The notes under the pieces: generated by a model
Told to the model about the DNA's origin: nothing
What the model saw: the letters and a program-made list of their open reading frames with translations, nothing else
The model's database searches: none
Position numbers and translations under genes: made by a program
Shown here: one piece after another, positions 24,004 to 29,808 of the stretch
Position numbering within the stretch: the first letter of the stretch is position 1
How the letters are laid out: each line of letters begins with the position of its first letter
Assembly (NCBI GenBank): GCA_018716625.1
Contig: DVJQ01000025.1
Coordinates: 1-35,476 of the forward strand
DNA: 35,476 bases
Source of the DNA: Candidatus Galligastranaerophilus intestinavium
GTDB lineage: Bacteria; Cyanobacteriota; Vampirovibrionia; Gastranaerophilales; Gastranaerophilaceae
Direction: 5' to 3'

Positions 24004-24855
24004 CTATTTTAAATCTATAATTTCTTTGTTTTTAAGACCTTTTGCTTTCAATTTTTGCTCTATATAGCGCCACCATTTAAGCTTTTGCCTGTACAAATAA
24101 TGATATCCTTCAAAATTTGCACTTGAAATATCTGACTGTTGCTTGTCTAAAAATTGTTCAAATTCGCGCTCAAGAGTATGAGTAAGCTCTTTTCTGTTAA
24201 AATCAGGCTCACTCATTATCCTTGGATTACCAAATTCTACAAGTATTTCAGGTCTGTCTTGCCTTAAAAAAGTATAGTTTATTGCAACAGGCACAAGGTT
24301 AACACCACCAAATTTTTTAACAGCCTCTTTTACAATGTAGGCAAGCCCTGATTGAAAAATTTCGGGACGATACATTGGCGGACGGATTATACCTTGCGGA
24401 AAAATCCAAAACGCAATGTCAGGCTCACTTAAAGTTGTCACTGCGTATTGAAGAAATTTCATAGACGCTTGCGGAGATTTTTTATTTATGGGGAAACATC
24501 CGACATATTGAAAAAGCGGAAATCTGTTCATCTCCTCAATCATAAAGCGAAAACGCGGTTTTTTTATAACTTTTTTAATTATCCTGTACACAATATTATA
24601 GGCTAAAACACCGTCCCACCAATTATTATGAGGGGCATAAAAAATTGTAGCCTTTGTTTTGTCCCTTTGTTCAAGCCTGTCAAGGTTTTTGTACATAAGA
24701 GAACAAAAACGCGCCTCTATCATTTTCGGAAAAACAATATCACCGATAAAATGCCAAAATGGGACATTCTTAGCCTCTCTGAATTTCTCCTCGCGGTTTC
24801 TCATTTTTGTCGGAGGAACCGCACTATACATGTGTTGTGGTGTGTCTTGGTTCAT
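24004..24855 (-). CDS. PlsC-like 1-acylglycerol-3-phosphate acyltransferase family protein
   Basis: Acyltransferase with the glycerolipid acyltransferase motifs. HNNWWD is the HX4D catalytic box, NKKSPQASMKFL is near the substrate-binding motif, FPQGIIRPP corresponds to the FPEGTR motif, and VPVAINYTFLR is the last box. The 283-residue length is somewhat longer than PlsC because of a basic C-terminal tail. It has no strong transmembrane helix, so it may bind the inner face of the membrane peripherally. The altered third motif (FPQGIIRPP) resembles cyanobacterial-type homologues more than canonical PlsC, so the acceptor may not be lysophosphatidate. The gene has no ribosome binding site but has a consensus promoter ending 6 nt from the ATG. 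Confidence 0.85.
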   Translation of the reverse strand: MNQDTPQHMYSAVPPTKMRNREEKFREAKNVPFWHFIGDIVFPKMIEARFCSLMYKNLDRLEQRDKTKATIFYAPHNNWWDGVLAYNIVYRIIKKVIKKPRFRFMIEEMNRFPLFQYVGCFPINKKSPQASMKFLQYAVTTLSEPDIAFWIFPQGIIRPPMYRPEIFQSGLAYIVKEAVKKFGGVNLVPVAINYTFLRQDRPEILVEFGNPRIMSEPDFNRKELTHTLEREFEQFLDKQQSDISSANFEGYHYLYRQKLKWWRYIEQKLKAKGLKNKEIIDLK

Positions 24856-24890: not shown

Positions 24891-27800
24891 TCAGCTTATG
24901 CGTTTTAATTGGCAATATGCCCTAAATGCTGTCAATTCCTTTTGTATTGCATATTGATGTTTTTCAAGCCCCAAGCGCGATGCAAGAGTCAAGGCTTTTT
25001 CATAAACCCTTATCGTACTTTGAGCAACAGCAAGTTTTTTATCATCATCAATATGCACAATTGAATCCTGCATGATATTTGCCCTTAAACGGTACAAACG
25101 CATTTGTAAAAATATCAGCTCGTTTGCACTTGCGTCCTGTAAAGCCAGTTCGCAATACATTTTTGCATTATCAAAGTCATTCTTTTGCAAATACGCACGC
25201 GACAAAAGCTCTTGAAAAAGTATTTTAAAATTAATACTGCTTATTTTTGCACTCTCGCATATTGCAACAGCTTTTTCGCAAATTTCAATACATCTGTCCG
25301 CACCTGAAGAAGGCAGGGTTGCCTTTGCACTTATATACCAAGCCAAAAGCGCCCCAAAGGCAATTTTTTTATCGGAAAAATATGTCATTTGCTGCGCACA
25401 TATCTCAAGAGCACGAAGAGCATTGTTTTCTTTTAAAAGAACATAAGCAAGCATTGTTTTTAGAATATTTTTTGTATACTCATCCCCGCAATTGTTTGCA
25501 AAAGTTACCGCTTCAAACAAATCTTCCTTAATGTTTTCAAAGTTACCCGAAAATATTTTATTAAAAATATCTATAAGATTCCATTTTGATACTAATTTTA
25601 AATCATTTACGGCATAAGAAAATTCTTTTAGTACTGATTGCAATATCTCATCAGAATCTTTTATAAACCCGCGAGATGTTTGCGCGCAAGCATGAGTTAG
25701 CGCCAAGTGCATTTTAAGCCTTGTTAGACTGTGGCTCTTGTCTTTGTTTAACTCTTTTTTTATTTCTTCAATTAACTCAAAAGAAAGAGGACTGCCCTGC
25801 TGTGCGTAGGATTCCGCCAAAATAATATTCGACATTATCCAAGTTTCATAAACCTCTCTTATTGACACAAAGTCACTTTTCTTGGGATGTTTTAAAAATT
25901 TTTGTAAAACAGGATTTATCTCATTATTAACCATGCTTGCTATTTCGGACCAGTTACCGAGTTGCAAAAGTGCTTCCAGTTTTCTTGTTTTTATAAGCGC
26001 CCTTTGCAATTCTTGTTTTGGTTTAGAATATATTGCAAGAACAGCGTCAACCGTTTCTACTATTGCAGGGTAATTTTGCGCGACTTTGCAACTTTGAATC
26101 AAATAACCGCTAAGTTCAACAACTTTGCTGTCATTTTCGTTTTTCTGAGCACTGACAATCGCATTTGAAAGATACTCAATAGCTTCTTTAGGGTTTTTCA
26201 GATAGGTTAATTTACCCAAACGCTCACAAATGTTGTTTTTGATATAGTCAAAGTTTGCAACTTTTACGTCTTTTAAAAGAATAAGACTTTGCTTTTGACA
26301 TAGGGTATAAAAACTTACATCACCAATGTATGAAGCGAGTTTAAGACTCATTGTCCACAAACTGAATGCAAGGTCTTTTTCTCCTGTAATCTGCGCCAAA
26401 AGAGAGGGTATAGCCGGAGATGATACAGTTCTTTTACAAATTTCACCGAGAAGTTTTTTATGAACTTCCAGCAATTCTTTGTCATCTTTTGCAACAGCAT
26501 AAGTATGTGACCATACGAGCGAGTTTTTAAATTCGAAAATATTTTCCGTAATTCTTTTTATATAACCGTTTTTTTCCAAAAACGCAACAACGCGCTCAAA
26601 GTTTTCAAGCTCAAGATTAAAAACTTTTTCCATAAGCGATTTTGTAAACTTGCCGCCAAGCATAGAGGCAACCATTAAGAACTCATACTCCTTACGGCGA
26701 TTTTCTTTTAAATAAGCAAAACGCTTATCCATAAGCTCTTTAAGACTGTTTACTATATACATTGACTCTTGCTTTGCATCAAAGACAAATTCCTTGTTTT
26801 TTAAACTTAGTGTTTTTGTTTCGAACAAATCGTATAAAACCTGTTCTACATAAGCAAAATTACCCTGAGCATTTAAAATAATTTGGTTTAATACCGCAAG
26901 TGGTAAAACATCACAGCTGCCAACACGCAACTTTATAAAATCTCTGACATCGGCAGCTTCTTTTTGCGCAAGGTTAATGTTTAAGCATGCATTCTTTGGG
27001 AGCTTTTCACTGTTTATGTACATTTGAATGGCATGTTGATTTCTATAGGTCAAAACCAATTTTGCACCGGTTTTGAAATAATCGCATTCAATGAGATATT
27101 TTACAAAATCAAAAGACGTTTCATCAATTAAATCAAAATCATCAATTACAACTGTCAGTTTATTTTTAGATTTCAAATATACAAGAATATCTTTTAAGTC
27201 TTGAAAAGTTTTCTTTTTGTTCTCTAAAATATGCTCATAATAAGCTTCTTTTAGGGGATATACAATATTTATAAGGGTGTCTATTTTTTCTTGAGGAAGA
27301 TGACCTGATAAGTTCCTTCCAAGGACATCTTTTAGCTCTTGCACTCTTTTTTCGTACCGACTCGGGGCAAAAGATAAGTCAAAAAGCGACAGACAAATAT
27401 CCTGTATTAAGCCCATAGGAGTTACTTGGGTTAGTGCGCAACAGTGCCCCTTTAATACAATATGTGCACCAACTTCAAGTCTTTTGTACATTTTTTCTAA
27501 AAGATTAGTTTTACCACAACCTCTTGGGGCGTTGATTGAAATTGCTTTAATCTCACTCGAGGAGTCATTTATGGCATCGAGTACCATTTCAAGAGCTACA
27601 TCATCTCTTTGACATTCACTTTGAGAAAATACCGGCTTTTGATCCAAAAATACCATTTTATAAGATATCGGAGAAATTTTTATAAGTGGTATTTCGGATG
27701 ATAAAATTGAATAAGCGCCTTCAGATGTTATAATATCTTTTTCGATTCCTGATTCAAGTTGTTTTGGGGAGCGTGCTTCAAGATATTCCTCCTCCTTTAA

Positions 27801-28451
27801 AACTGCATATTTATAGTTAATTCCAACACCTAAGGTTTCACTTAAAATATTGTTAAATTTCTCGAACTCATCACTAAAAAGTCTTACCTTATCTAAAAAT
27901 TTAAAGTTTTTAGTATGGGGTATTTTAAACACTACGGTATGGGGATTTATAAATTCGCAAGGCACATTAAAACCTAACTTTACAGAGGTTTTTATATTTA
28001 AAACTACCTTTTGTCTAAACTCCTCGTCTTTGTACTTTTCAAACAACTGCTCAAGGTTAATAAAATCAACAAAAACAACAAGCTTTTGTTGCTTCTGCTC
28101 TTTGGGTTCAGCTTCTTTTTTTTGTTTTAAAGGCTCTTTTTCTTTTGGTTTTTGTATTTTATCCTTAGGTTTTTCAATATTTTGTTTGGGCTTAATTTCA
28201 TTATTTTCTTTTTTTTGGGTTTCGCTGTTAAAAACAAAAGAGCATTTTCTGCACTCAGGACTTGAGGCATAATTTGCACTACCGCATTTTGGGCAAAATT
28301 TTACAAAAGTAAAACCGCAAACAGAACAGGATGAGGATCCTATTCTTGTGTAGTTTCCGCATCGCGGGCACTTAAACTTCAGCCTCAGACCACATCCGGG
28401 GCACACAACATCTTGAGAGCTTACTTCAGTTTTGCATTTTGGACAAATCAC
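24891..28451 (-). CDS. Triple zinc-ribbon / cyclase-like / AAA-type NTPase / TPR protein
   Basis: A 1186-residue multidomain protein of unknown role. Three tandem zinc ribbons with exact 25-residue period (C3/6/17/20, C28/31/42/45, C53/56/67/70; CxxC-x10-CxxC each) are followed by a Lys/Glu/Pro linker (~78-122). Residues ~123-270 resemble a class III nucleotide cyclase domain (VVFVDFINLEQLF, then IITSEGAYSIL) with the catalytic residues apparently lost. A STAND-like NTPase follows with Walker A APRGCGKT (308-315) and Walker B VVIDDFD (434-440), then a winged-helix region and a long alpha-helical TPR-like C-terminus (~690-1180). This is the layout of cyclase-ATPase-TPR signalling proteins. A GTG starts it with a weak ribosome binding site. 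It is the first gene of the long minus-strand run. Confidence 0.85.
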   Translation of the reverse strand: MICPKCKTEVSSQDVVCPGCGLRLKFKCPRCGNYTRIGSSSCSVCGFTFVKFCPKCGSANYASSPECRKCSFVFNSETQKKENNEIKPKQNIEKPKDKIQKPKEKEPLKQKKEAEPKEQKQQKLVVFVDFINLEQLFEKYKDEEFRQKVVLNIKTSVKLGFNVPCEFINPHTVVFKIPHTKNFKFLDKVRLFSDEFEKFNNILSETLGVGINYKYAVLKEEEYLEARSPKQLESGIEKDIITSEGAYSILSSEIPLIKISPISYKMVFLDQKPVFSQSECQRDDVALEMVLDAINDSSSEIKAISINAPRGCGKTNLLEKMYKRLEVGAHIVLKGHCCALTQVTPMGLIQDICLSLFDLSFAPSRYEKRVQELKDVLGRNLSGHLPQEKIDTLINIVYPLKEAYYEHILENKKKTFQDLKDILVYLKSKNKLTVVIDDFDLIDETSFDFVKYLIECDYFKTGAKLVLTYRNQHAIQMYINSEKLPKNACLNINLAQKEAADVRDFIKLRVGSCDVLPLAVLNQIILNAQGNFAYVEQVLYDLFETKTLSLKNKEFVFDAKQESMYIVNSLKELMDKRFAYLKENRRKEYEFLMVASMLGGKFTKSLMEKVFNLELENFERVVAFLEKNGYIKRITENIFEFKNSLVWSHTYAVAKDDKELLEVHKKLLGEICKRTVSSPAIPSLLAQITGEKDLAFSLWTMSLKLASYIGDVSFYTLCQKQSLILLKDVKVANFDYIKNNICERLGKLTYLKNPKEAIEYLSNAIVSAQKNENDSKVVELSGYLIQSCKVAQNYPAIVETVDAVLAIYSKPKQELQRALIKTRKLEALLQLGNWSEIASMVNNEINPVLQKFLKHPKKSDFVSIREVYETWIMSNIILAESYAQQGSPLSFELIEEIKKELNKDKSHSLTRLKMHLALTHACAQTSRGFIKDSDEILQSVLKEFSYAVNDLKLVSKWNLIDIFNKIFSGNFENIKEDLFEAVTFANNCGDEYTKNILKTMLAYVLLKENNALRALEICAQQMTYFSDKKIAFGALLAWYISAKATLPSSGADRCIEICEKAVAICESAKISSINFKILFQELLSRAYLQKNDFDNAKMYCELALQDASANELIFLQMRLYRLRANIMQDSIVHIDDDKKLAVAQSTIRVYEKALTLASRLGLEKHQYAIQKELTAFRAYCQLKRIS

Positions 28452-28585: not shown

Positions 28586-29296
28586 ATGGAATTAGGAGTA
28601 AATATAGATCACGTTGCAACACTTAGAAACGCAAGAGGCGGAGCAGAGCCCAGCGTTTTAGATGCCGCACTCATTGCTCAGCGTGCGGGTGCAAGCGCCA
28701 TTACAATCCATTTAAGAGAGGACAGACGACACATTAAAGATTGCGACCTTGATGAGATTAAAAAGAATATTAAAACAAACATTAACCTTGAGATGGCTGC
28801 AACGGAAGAAATGCAACAGATAGCTGTCAAAAACAAACCCTACTCCTGCTGTATTGTCCCTGAAAAAAGACAGGAAGTTACGACAGAAGGCGGTTTAGAT
28901 GTTTATTCGCAAGAAGAATATATAAAAGAATTTATTAAACCGCTTCATCAGGCAGGTATTGTAGTCAGCCTTTTTATAGACCCTGATGAAAAACAAATTT
29001 TTGCTGCTCACAATTGCAAAGCTGATTTTATAGAGCTGCACACAGGTGCATTTTCAAATGCGTTTAATACTGAGCGCGAAAAAGAAGAATTTGAAAAATT
29101 AAAAACCGCAGCAGCTCTTGCGCAAAATTTAGGTCTAAAAGTTAATGCCGGTCATGGTTTAAATTACGAAAATGTACATTTAATGCATGGAATTGACGGA
29201 CTTGTCGAGCTAAATATAGGGCACAGTATTATCTCGCGTGCGGTTTTTGTTGGTTTAGAGCGGGCAATTAAAGAAATGCGCGAACTTATTATCTAG
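28586..29296 (+). CDS. pdxJ: Pyridoxine 5'-phosphate synthase
   Basis: TIM-barrel enzyme joining 3-amino-2-oxopropyl phosphate and deoxyxylulose 5-phosphate to pyridoxine 5'-phosphate, the last step of the DXP-dependent vitamin B6 route. The 236 residues match the family. The N-terminal GVNIDHVATLRNARGG carries the catalytic histidine (H9), IHLREDRRHI the phosphate loop, NLEMAATEEM the catalytic glutamate, and VNAGHGLNYENV with IGHSIISRAVF the C-terminal sites. The start is fixed by homology and lies 7 nt after an extended -10. The stop codon shares the bases CTAG with the stop of the convergent 171-aa gene. Confidence 0.97.
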   Translation: MELGVNIDHVATLRNARGGAEPSVLDAALIAQRAGASAITIHLREDRRHIKDCDLDEIKKNIKTNINLEMAATEEMQQIAVKNKPYSCCIVPEKRQEVTTEGGLDVYSQEEYIKEFIKPLHQAGIVVSLFIDPDEKQIFAAHNCKADFIELHTGAFSNAFNTEREKEEFEKLKTAAALAQNLGLKVNAGHGLNYENVHLMHGIDGLVELNIGHSIISRAVFVGLERAIKEMRELII

Positions 29297-29808
29297 TCAA
29301 GCAAATCAATAACACTTCCGCTGTCATTAGTACCTGAAGTTAATTTGTCTGCGTATCTTGCAACCTGTTTATCAAAACTTGGGTCATTTACATAAATACA
29401 GCAGGAAATTTCATTGTTGTCAGGATTTTTTGTTTCTTTATTTTTTGTAAAAATACTTTTTAATTTTTCTGCAAAACCACCGCCTGTTTTAGTTTCTAAA
29501 GTTTTATCGGCTTTTTTTGCACTAAATGTAACATATTCTATACTATTAGCAACGTCAAACTCACTGCTTGCAAAAACGTCCAATTGATAAGTTACATCAT
29601 CGGGCAATTTTGTTTCAACTTCGTCTTTTAGGAAATTTATAGCCTTGGCAACCTTTATAACCTGTTGTCGCTCTGTGGGTCTGCTTATATTTATTGAGCC
29701 ATCAGAACCATATTGTCCAAGAGTTGATATCTTTTTTGCTACTTGTTCCTTATCGTACACAAGTTTTCCTTGAAATGACTGATTAATGTTTATTGGTGCT
29801 ATTTTCAT
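29293..29808 (-). CDS. Protein of unknown function (171 aa)
   Basis: Family not recognised. It begins MKIAPININQSFQGKLVYDK and has no signal peptide or membrane helix. The rest is a mix of predicted strands and helices with a central basic, Lys/Thr-rich stretch (~105-130) and a Cys pair (SCCIYV). The ATG is supported by AGGAGA 6-7 nt upstream. The short N-terminal pattern MKI, then NINQSF-GK, has the look of a recurring lineage-specific N-terminus, which would need a search to confirm. It converges on pdxJ with overlapping stops and no terminator between. Confidence 0.7.
   Translation of the reverse strand: MKIAPININQSFQGKLVYDKEQVAKKISTLGQYGSDGSINISRPTERQQVIKVAKAINFLKDEVETKLPDDVTYQLDVFASSEFDVANSIEYVTFSAKKADKTLETKTGGGFAEKLKSIFTKNKETKNPDNNEISCCIYVNDPSFDKQVARYADKLTSGTNDSGSVIDLLD

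Follow-up and report, generated by a model that had tools for sequence, protein, structure and literature searches.

A large zinc-ribbon STAND protein of Gastranaerophilales with a predicted, catalytically dead class III cyclase domain: a candidate switch in an ECF sigma factor circuit

The window analyzed here is a stretch of 35,476 nucleotides that makes up an entire contig (C4; DVJQ01000025.1) of the 1.76 Mb genome of Candidatus Galligastranaerophilus intestinavium, and this report concerns the 1186-residue protein, hereafter the focal protein, that is encoded by the open reading frame (ORF) at its positions 24891-28451 on the minus strand. The focal protein carries three zinc ribbons, a domain predicted to have the class III cyclase fold, a STAND-type NTPase, and a long array of helical repeats. 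We propose, with modest confidence, that it is a cytosolic STAND-type switch of a circuit built on an extracytoplasmic function (ECF) sigma factor, that its cyclase domain is without catalysis and is kept as a structural or regulatory module, and that its output is transcription. Control of transcription is more likely as the output than cAMP or cGMP because the cyclase domain appears to be dead and because orthologues free of this domain follow an ECF sigma gene. No family in Pfam, NCBIfam, or PADLOC was found to span the whole protein, and a search of the literature turned up nothing on it.

The focal ORF has a GTG start and no internal stops, and all the parts of the protein described below lie on the minus strand. 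The N-terminus holds zinc ribbon 1 (C3, C6, C17, and C20; 28392..28445), zinc ribbon 2 (C28, C31, C42, and C45; 28317..28370), and zinc ribbon 3 (C53, C56, C67, and C70; 28242..28295). Their CxxC pairs begin at residues 3, 17, 28, 42, 53, and 67, and the exact 25-residue period, which a first-pass annotation had read from this one sequence, is held in all 27 aligned orthologues, where all 12 ribbon cysteines are invariant. The Pfam DZR model scored 30.4 bits on these ribbons against a cut-off of 27.3. The architecture as a whole is not a chance assembly since it recurs in 26 other loci at 46-92% identity. Between the ribbons and the next domain lies a variable linker rich in Lys and Glu (residues 75-119; 28095..28229), which is modelled with low confidence.

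The middle domain (residues 120-272; 27636..28094) was modelled by AlphaFold (AF2) with a confidence (pLDDT) of 84. When this model was searched with Foldseek, 73 PDB chains were matched at E<=1e-3 and the top 50 listed were all class III cyclases, among them 7sua, which was deposited as a hypothetical protein. Alignment of the model with VIA-align gave Z scores of up to 13.7 over 152 residues. The first-pass annotation had called residues 120-275 a class III cyclase-like segment and had named structure prediction as the test that could overturn this; the predicted structure bears it out, and by this model the middle domain is a class III cyclase fold. The claim rests on the predicted structure because this domain, when searched by sequence profile against the PDB, gave no match. 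PF00211 had no match in the focal protein up to an E value of 5, and in a scan of the whole window genome it matched only a CHASE2 cyclase on contig C44.

The catalytic site was compared by eye and without gaps, on register and secondary structure, with the window genome's own intact cyclase (L001). The segment FVDFINLEQLFEKYKDEEF of the focal protein lines up with FADIRGFTSISEKLSAEEV of L001, which places D129 at the position of the first metal-binding Asp; this position is Asp in 22 of the 27 orthologues and Asn in the other 5, the substitution occurring in one lineage. Further on, 'KFMGDAVLAVF' of L001 corresponds to 'EFINPHTVVFK' of the focal protein, and the second metal-Asp position (P170 here) is occupied by P, S, E, Q, or K, with Asp in none of the 27. 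The expected site of the Asn/Arg dyad, the stretch from beta-4 to the 'ILVS'-like strand, has about 20 residues fewer in the focal protein than in L001, and no equivalent motif was seen by eye in this shortened segment. The position of the base-specifying Lys is not conserved either. Since the second metal Asp is gone in every orthologue and the dyad stretch is shortened, we judge from these alignments that the cyclase fold is kept and that the cyclase chemistry is almost surely gone, which supports the earlier expectation that there is no cyclase output. The accompanying statement that metal-binding aspartates are not evident is nearly right: it holds for the second position, and the first is still Asp in most orthologues. 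Similarly, the term decayed is apt for the catalytic residues but not for the domain, which is under purifying selection and is not decaying: among 12 close orthologues the median ratio of nonsynonymous to synonymous polymorphism (pN/pS) was 0.117 for the middle domain, 0.126 for the NTPase, and 0.105 for the repeats, and it was 0.59 for the linker.

The STAND/AAA_16-type NTPase occupies residues 288-560 (26772..27590). AAA_16 matched it at E=1.8e-7 with 32.2 bits, which is just below the cut-off of 32.6. Walker A is APRGCGKT (residues 308-315; 27507-27530), in which G311, G313, and K314 are invariant, and the Asp pair of Walker B, D437-D438, is likewise invariant. At residues 530-532 there is GNF, in which G530 and N531 are nearly invariant; MalT-type STAND proteins usually have GNP at this GxP motif. 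A winged-helix-like region (residues 561-655; 26487..26771), assigned on secondary structure and by analogy with MalT and Apaf-1, joins the NTPase to the TPR-like helical repeat array (residues 656-1186; 24894..26486). In the full-length model, which has a pLDDT of 81.5, an unbroken series of helices runs from residue 658 to 1182, about 520 residues, in agreement with the roughly 500 residues of repeats that had been annotated. The best PDB match of the full-length model in Foldseek was the STAND-TPR protein 6mfv (E 4.9e-11), and MalT and Apaf-1 were among the top matches. Together with the intact Walker motifs, these matches uphold the STAND assignment, and the C-terminal two thirds of the focal protein is thus modelled as a STAND module followed by superstructure repeats.

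In human soluble adenylyl cyclase (sAC; ADCY10), as in bacterial cyclase-ATPase-TPR proteins and TOMM fusions, the cyclase stands ahead of an NTPase and long repeats, and the likeness of the focal protein to signalling proteins of this kind, suggested at first pass, is supported. Cyclase structures of sAC were among the Foldseek matches of the middle domain; the focal protein, though, has a single cyclase domain and that one is dead. The TOMM kinase/cyclase fusion model TIGR03903 matches the focal NTPase (E 5.7e-7), yet with only 27.8 bits against a cut-off of 705.75, and the focal protein has no kinase. With the STAND NTPase-TPR regulators (6mfv, MalT, and Apaf-1) it has in common the NTPase and TPR folds and Walker A and B but, unlike MalT and Apaf-1, it has no DNA-binding or death domain by Pfam and has zinc ribbons and a pseudo-cyclase instead. 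The N-terminal input that had been thought new is not new. A consensus probe for zinc-ribbon-cyclase proteins had matches in 221 plasmid records, and in 56 of these the match covered 80% or more of the probe; evidence was taken from the retrieved database records alone. One protein, WP_081050230 of Cupriavidus basilensis ('adenylate/guanylate cyclase domain-containing protein'), has the same four parts in the same order in 1139 residues, compared to 1186 in the focal protein: zinc ribbons at 1-49, Guanylate_cyc at 89-268 (E 1.6e-26), AAA_16 at 290-475, and then TPR. It carries a full, active-type PF00211 cyclase and two ribbons, whereas the focal protein has a dead domain without a PF00211 match and three ribbons. 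The focal protein is therefore a catalytically dead version of a known zinc-ribbon/cyclase/AAA_16/TPR plan with one ribbon more. No intact ancestor was recovered within the class: most of the PF00211 matches in 77 genomes fell on ORFs that could not accommodate the full plan, and the two of more than 1400 residues that were inspected proved to be kinase-cyclase fusions lacking zinc ribbons. Among large-genome members of the class, L142 (G334) and L143 (G316) are kinase-cyclase fusions that resemble the TOMM kinase/cyclase type, with ORFs of 1270 and 1516 residues.

In a sample of the phylum, the focal family was present in 129 of 130 genomes of the GTDB family to which the window belongs; the window genome has a single match to it. 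The middle of the protein occurs in three states. The window clade, the clade of the focal genome (coded G000), has the pseudo-cyclase in proteins of about 1190 residues; the other two states are a long acidic linker and, in proteins of about 985 residues, a short one. Most genera have orthologues without the cyclase domain, either the short form or the form with acidic linkers in its place. In a neighboring family of the order one relative was found (G214), and its middle domain, also long, weakly matches that of the focal protein (hmmsearch E 7e-5). A tree built on the NTPase-repeat region groups the long forms in one clade (support 100/100) nested among linker forms (85/93), and a single loss of the cyclase-like domain was not rejected by the approximately unbiased (AU) test (p 0.063).

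Of 20 loci outside the window clade, 17 have directly upstream, on the same strand, a gene for an ECF sigma factor of about 190 residues (TIGR02937, E 1.6e-20, 73.4 bits; cut-off 42.9). In 38 genomes with cyclase-less orthologues the gap between the sigma gene and the focal-family gene is 4-104 nt with a median of 17. The sigma gene was found in 95 of 107 family genomes, and in one family genome (G204) the focal gene and the sigma gene are both absent. Again in 17 of the 20 loci, the sigma gene has upstream of it a gene whose large product, in the copies that were scanned, combines DUF1822 with an extended acidic region, a transmembrane (TM) segment, and a TonB C-terminal domain. The window genome has an ECF-like sigma factor at C66:11719-12357 (E 7e-31) and a DUF1822 gene at C44 3991-5499 (L206; E 1e-39). 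The product of the latter has DUF1822 above the cut-off, zf-HC2 at 22.7 against a cut-off of 22.2, then a TM segment and TonB_2, and it carries the motif HLLACPAC, the signature of zinc-binding anti-sigma (ZAS) factors, which is kept also in three further lineages that were checked. Because several of them carry the ZAS motif, the DUF1822 proteins are candidate membrane anti-sigma factors. Neighborhoods of ECF sigma and DUF1822 genes with large signalling proteins (EACC2-caspase), some with STAND or CHASE2 domains, have been described (PMC8195603). There, as in the focal family, the two genes adjoin a large signalling protein able to carry STAND; here, in contrast, the third partner is a zinc-ribbon/STAND/TPR protein without a caspase match and DUF1822 is fused to ZAS-like, TM, and TonB-C parts. 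In the SigG-SapG system of cyanobacteria an ECF-type sigma gene is co-transcribed with a regulator gene (PMC2758279), but gene order and type of partner differ from those of the focal/sigma pair. We also observed that the DUF1822/ZAS/TM/TonB-C gene of the window genome and the genome's only class III cyclase gene (CHASE2 type, C44 7927-9879) are about 2.4 kb apart, with recG between them, and CHASE2 occurs too in the published DUF1822/ECF neighborhoods (PMC8195603).

Many genomes of sister genera contain a second paralogue, the B form, which has triple zinc ribbons, about 1170 residues, and about 23% identity to the focal protein (L049-L052, L078-L079, and L122-L141). Its middle is long and cyclase-like, being weakly similar by profile to intact cyclases (E about 1e-4), and a pattern search found no Walker A in the B form. 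In several genera the B-form locus is between ruvB and a glycogen-synthase-like gene. The B form was considered as a second sigma partner and rejected, as these neighbors do not include a sigma gene.

Several observations weigh against the proposal that the focal protein is a STAND switch with a dead cyclase domain acting on an ECF sigma factor. With respect to the domain, a single profile-profile comparison (hhalign) of the middle domain with intact cyclases of the class gave a probability of only 3% (E 0.014), so that the HMM-HMM check proposed at first pass left cyclase homology undetected by profiles alone. The middle domain of the B form gave 12% (E 0.0024), and the middle domains of the focal protein and the B form do not align with each other. 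Because these probabilities are low the link to cyclases by sequence is only suggestive. With respect to the circuit, the ZAS zinc ligands are lost in most short-form genera, and one genome (G194) has the focal family but neither a clear sigma match nor a DUF1822 gene. In the window genome the focal gene (C4), the sigma gene (C66), and the DUF1822 gene (C44) are on separate contigs and the sigma factor is divergent, scoring 30.5 bits with TIGR02937, which is below the cut-off; in the outgroup family the three genes are not linked either. Given this separation and the divergent sigma factor, coupling of the three in the window genome would be a further step taken from orthology.

In the proposed circuit, the TPR superhelix would detect a ligand or partner, and ATP binding and oligomerization of the STAND NTPase would then switch the focal protein. 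The N-terminal zinc ribbons would contact the sigma/anti-sigma pair or RNA polymerase, and this contact would set the amount of active ECF sigma factor. Where it is present, the dead cyclase domain, which is probably a dimerizing module, may serve as an assembly module. More tentatively, and with less than even confidence, we suggest that this is a core circuit of gut Gastranaerophilales in which a former cyclase-ATPase-TPR protein gave up second-messenger output and came to act directly on an ECF sigma factor, which would be held by a membrane anti-sigma factor of DUF1822/ZAS/TonB-like make-up. The pseudo-cyclase would then be a remnant that serves as an assembly module in one clade and was deleted in most others.

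The focal gene is at the head of a run of sixteen co-directional genes that extends from 28451 down to 6928, as annotated, and the first-pass annotation took it for a regulator or scaffold of this run with its envelope and chromosome functions. The run includes the lipid A genes lpxA, lpxC, lpxD, and fabZ and genes for heptose adenylyltransferase, Mfd, signal peptidase I, and Smc-ScpA-ScpB. The next gene, for a PlsC-like PF01553 acyltransferase (24004..24855, minus strand), is separated from the focal gene by 35 nt, pdxJ (28586..29296, plus strand) is the divergent neighbor, and the order pdxJ/focal/plsC/ROK/mfd/ppi is kept in most loci of the window clade. A role in its own run would fit this arrangement but is improbable, and is the weaker reading because the neighborhood, including the adjacency of both these genes, is conserved in the window clade only: the pdxJ/plsC/ROK/mfd neighbors were found in none of the 20 loci outside it, where the family mostly adjoins the ECF sigma gene, plsC/ROK/mfd are missing even within the clade at L017-L018, and the gene family itself is near-universal.

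To about the same small degree we entertain that the focal protein is a STAND protein of biological conflict or phage defense, comparable to Avs or to the EACC2/DUF1822/ECF-sigma systems for which a tie to immunity has been described (PMC8195603). Its STAND-TPR build, the presence of Avs3 among the Foldseek matches of the full-length model, and the conflict-linked description of DUF1822 and ECF sigma neighborhoods (PMC8195603) would be in keeping with this, but the only PADLOC match was mad8 (E 0.005) and the gene behaves as a core gene, being in nearly every family genome with low pN/pS, no effector domain found, and no mobile context. Less probable still is a role in translation or RNA processing in which the ribbons bind nucleic acid or the ribosome; the ribbons weakly resemble ribosomal eL40 (E 0.009 to 0.3), which reflects a general zinc-ribbon likeness, and the conserved neighborhood is without translation genes. 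Least probable, by a little, is residual nucleotide binding, or formation of an unusual product, by the cyclase-like domain. The intact fold and the retention of D129 in most orthologues would allow it, whereas the complete loss of the second metal Asp, the change of D129 to Asn in one lineage, the unconserved Lys position, the shortened dyad segment, and the absence of the domain from most orthologues all speak against it.

Apart from the focal gene, we observed that several small Gastranaerophilales proteins (window 29293-29808; L145, L146, L151, L153, L154, L172, L199, and L008) carry an SF[KRQ]G motif among their first 30 residues. The motif occurs in 9 of 845 ORFs compared to 0.4 expected from the interior rate, and about five of these are mutually homologous. 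This N-terminal motif is possibly a sorting tag.

Signalling in Gastranaerophilales, which are widespread in the gut, has received little study, and our literature search found nothing relevant on it. The present analysis connects a large, uncharacterized, and nearly universal protein of these bacteria with an ECF sigma and candidate anti-sigma pair. The natural series of a dead cyclase domain, a long linker, and a short linker in one family lets one ask what non-catalytic roles cyclase domains have in cyclase-ATPase-TPR proteins. If the link to the sigma factor is true, control of an ECF sigma factor by a STAND switch would add to the modes of control exerted by anti-sigma factors, kinases, and fused TPR or SnoaL extensions.

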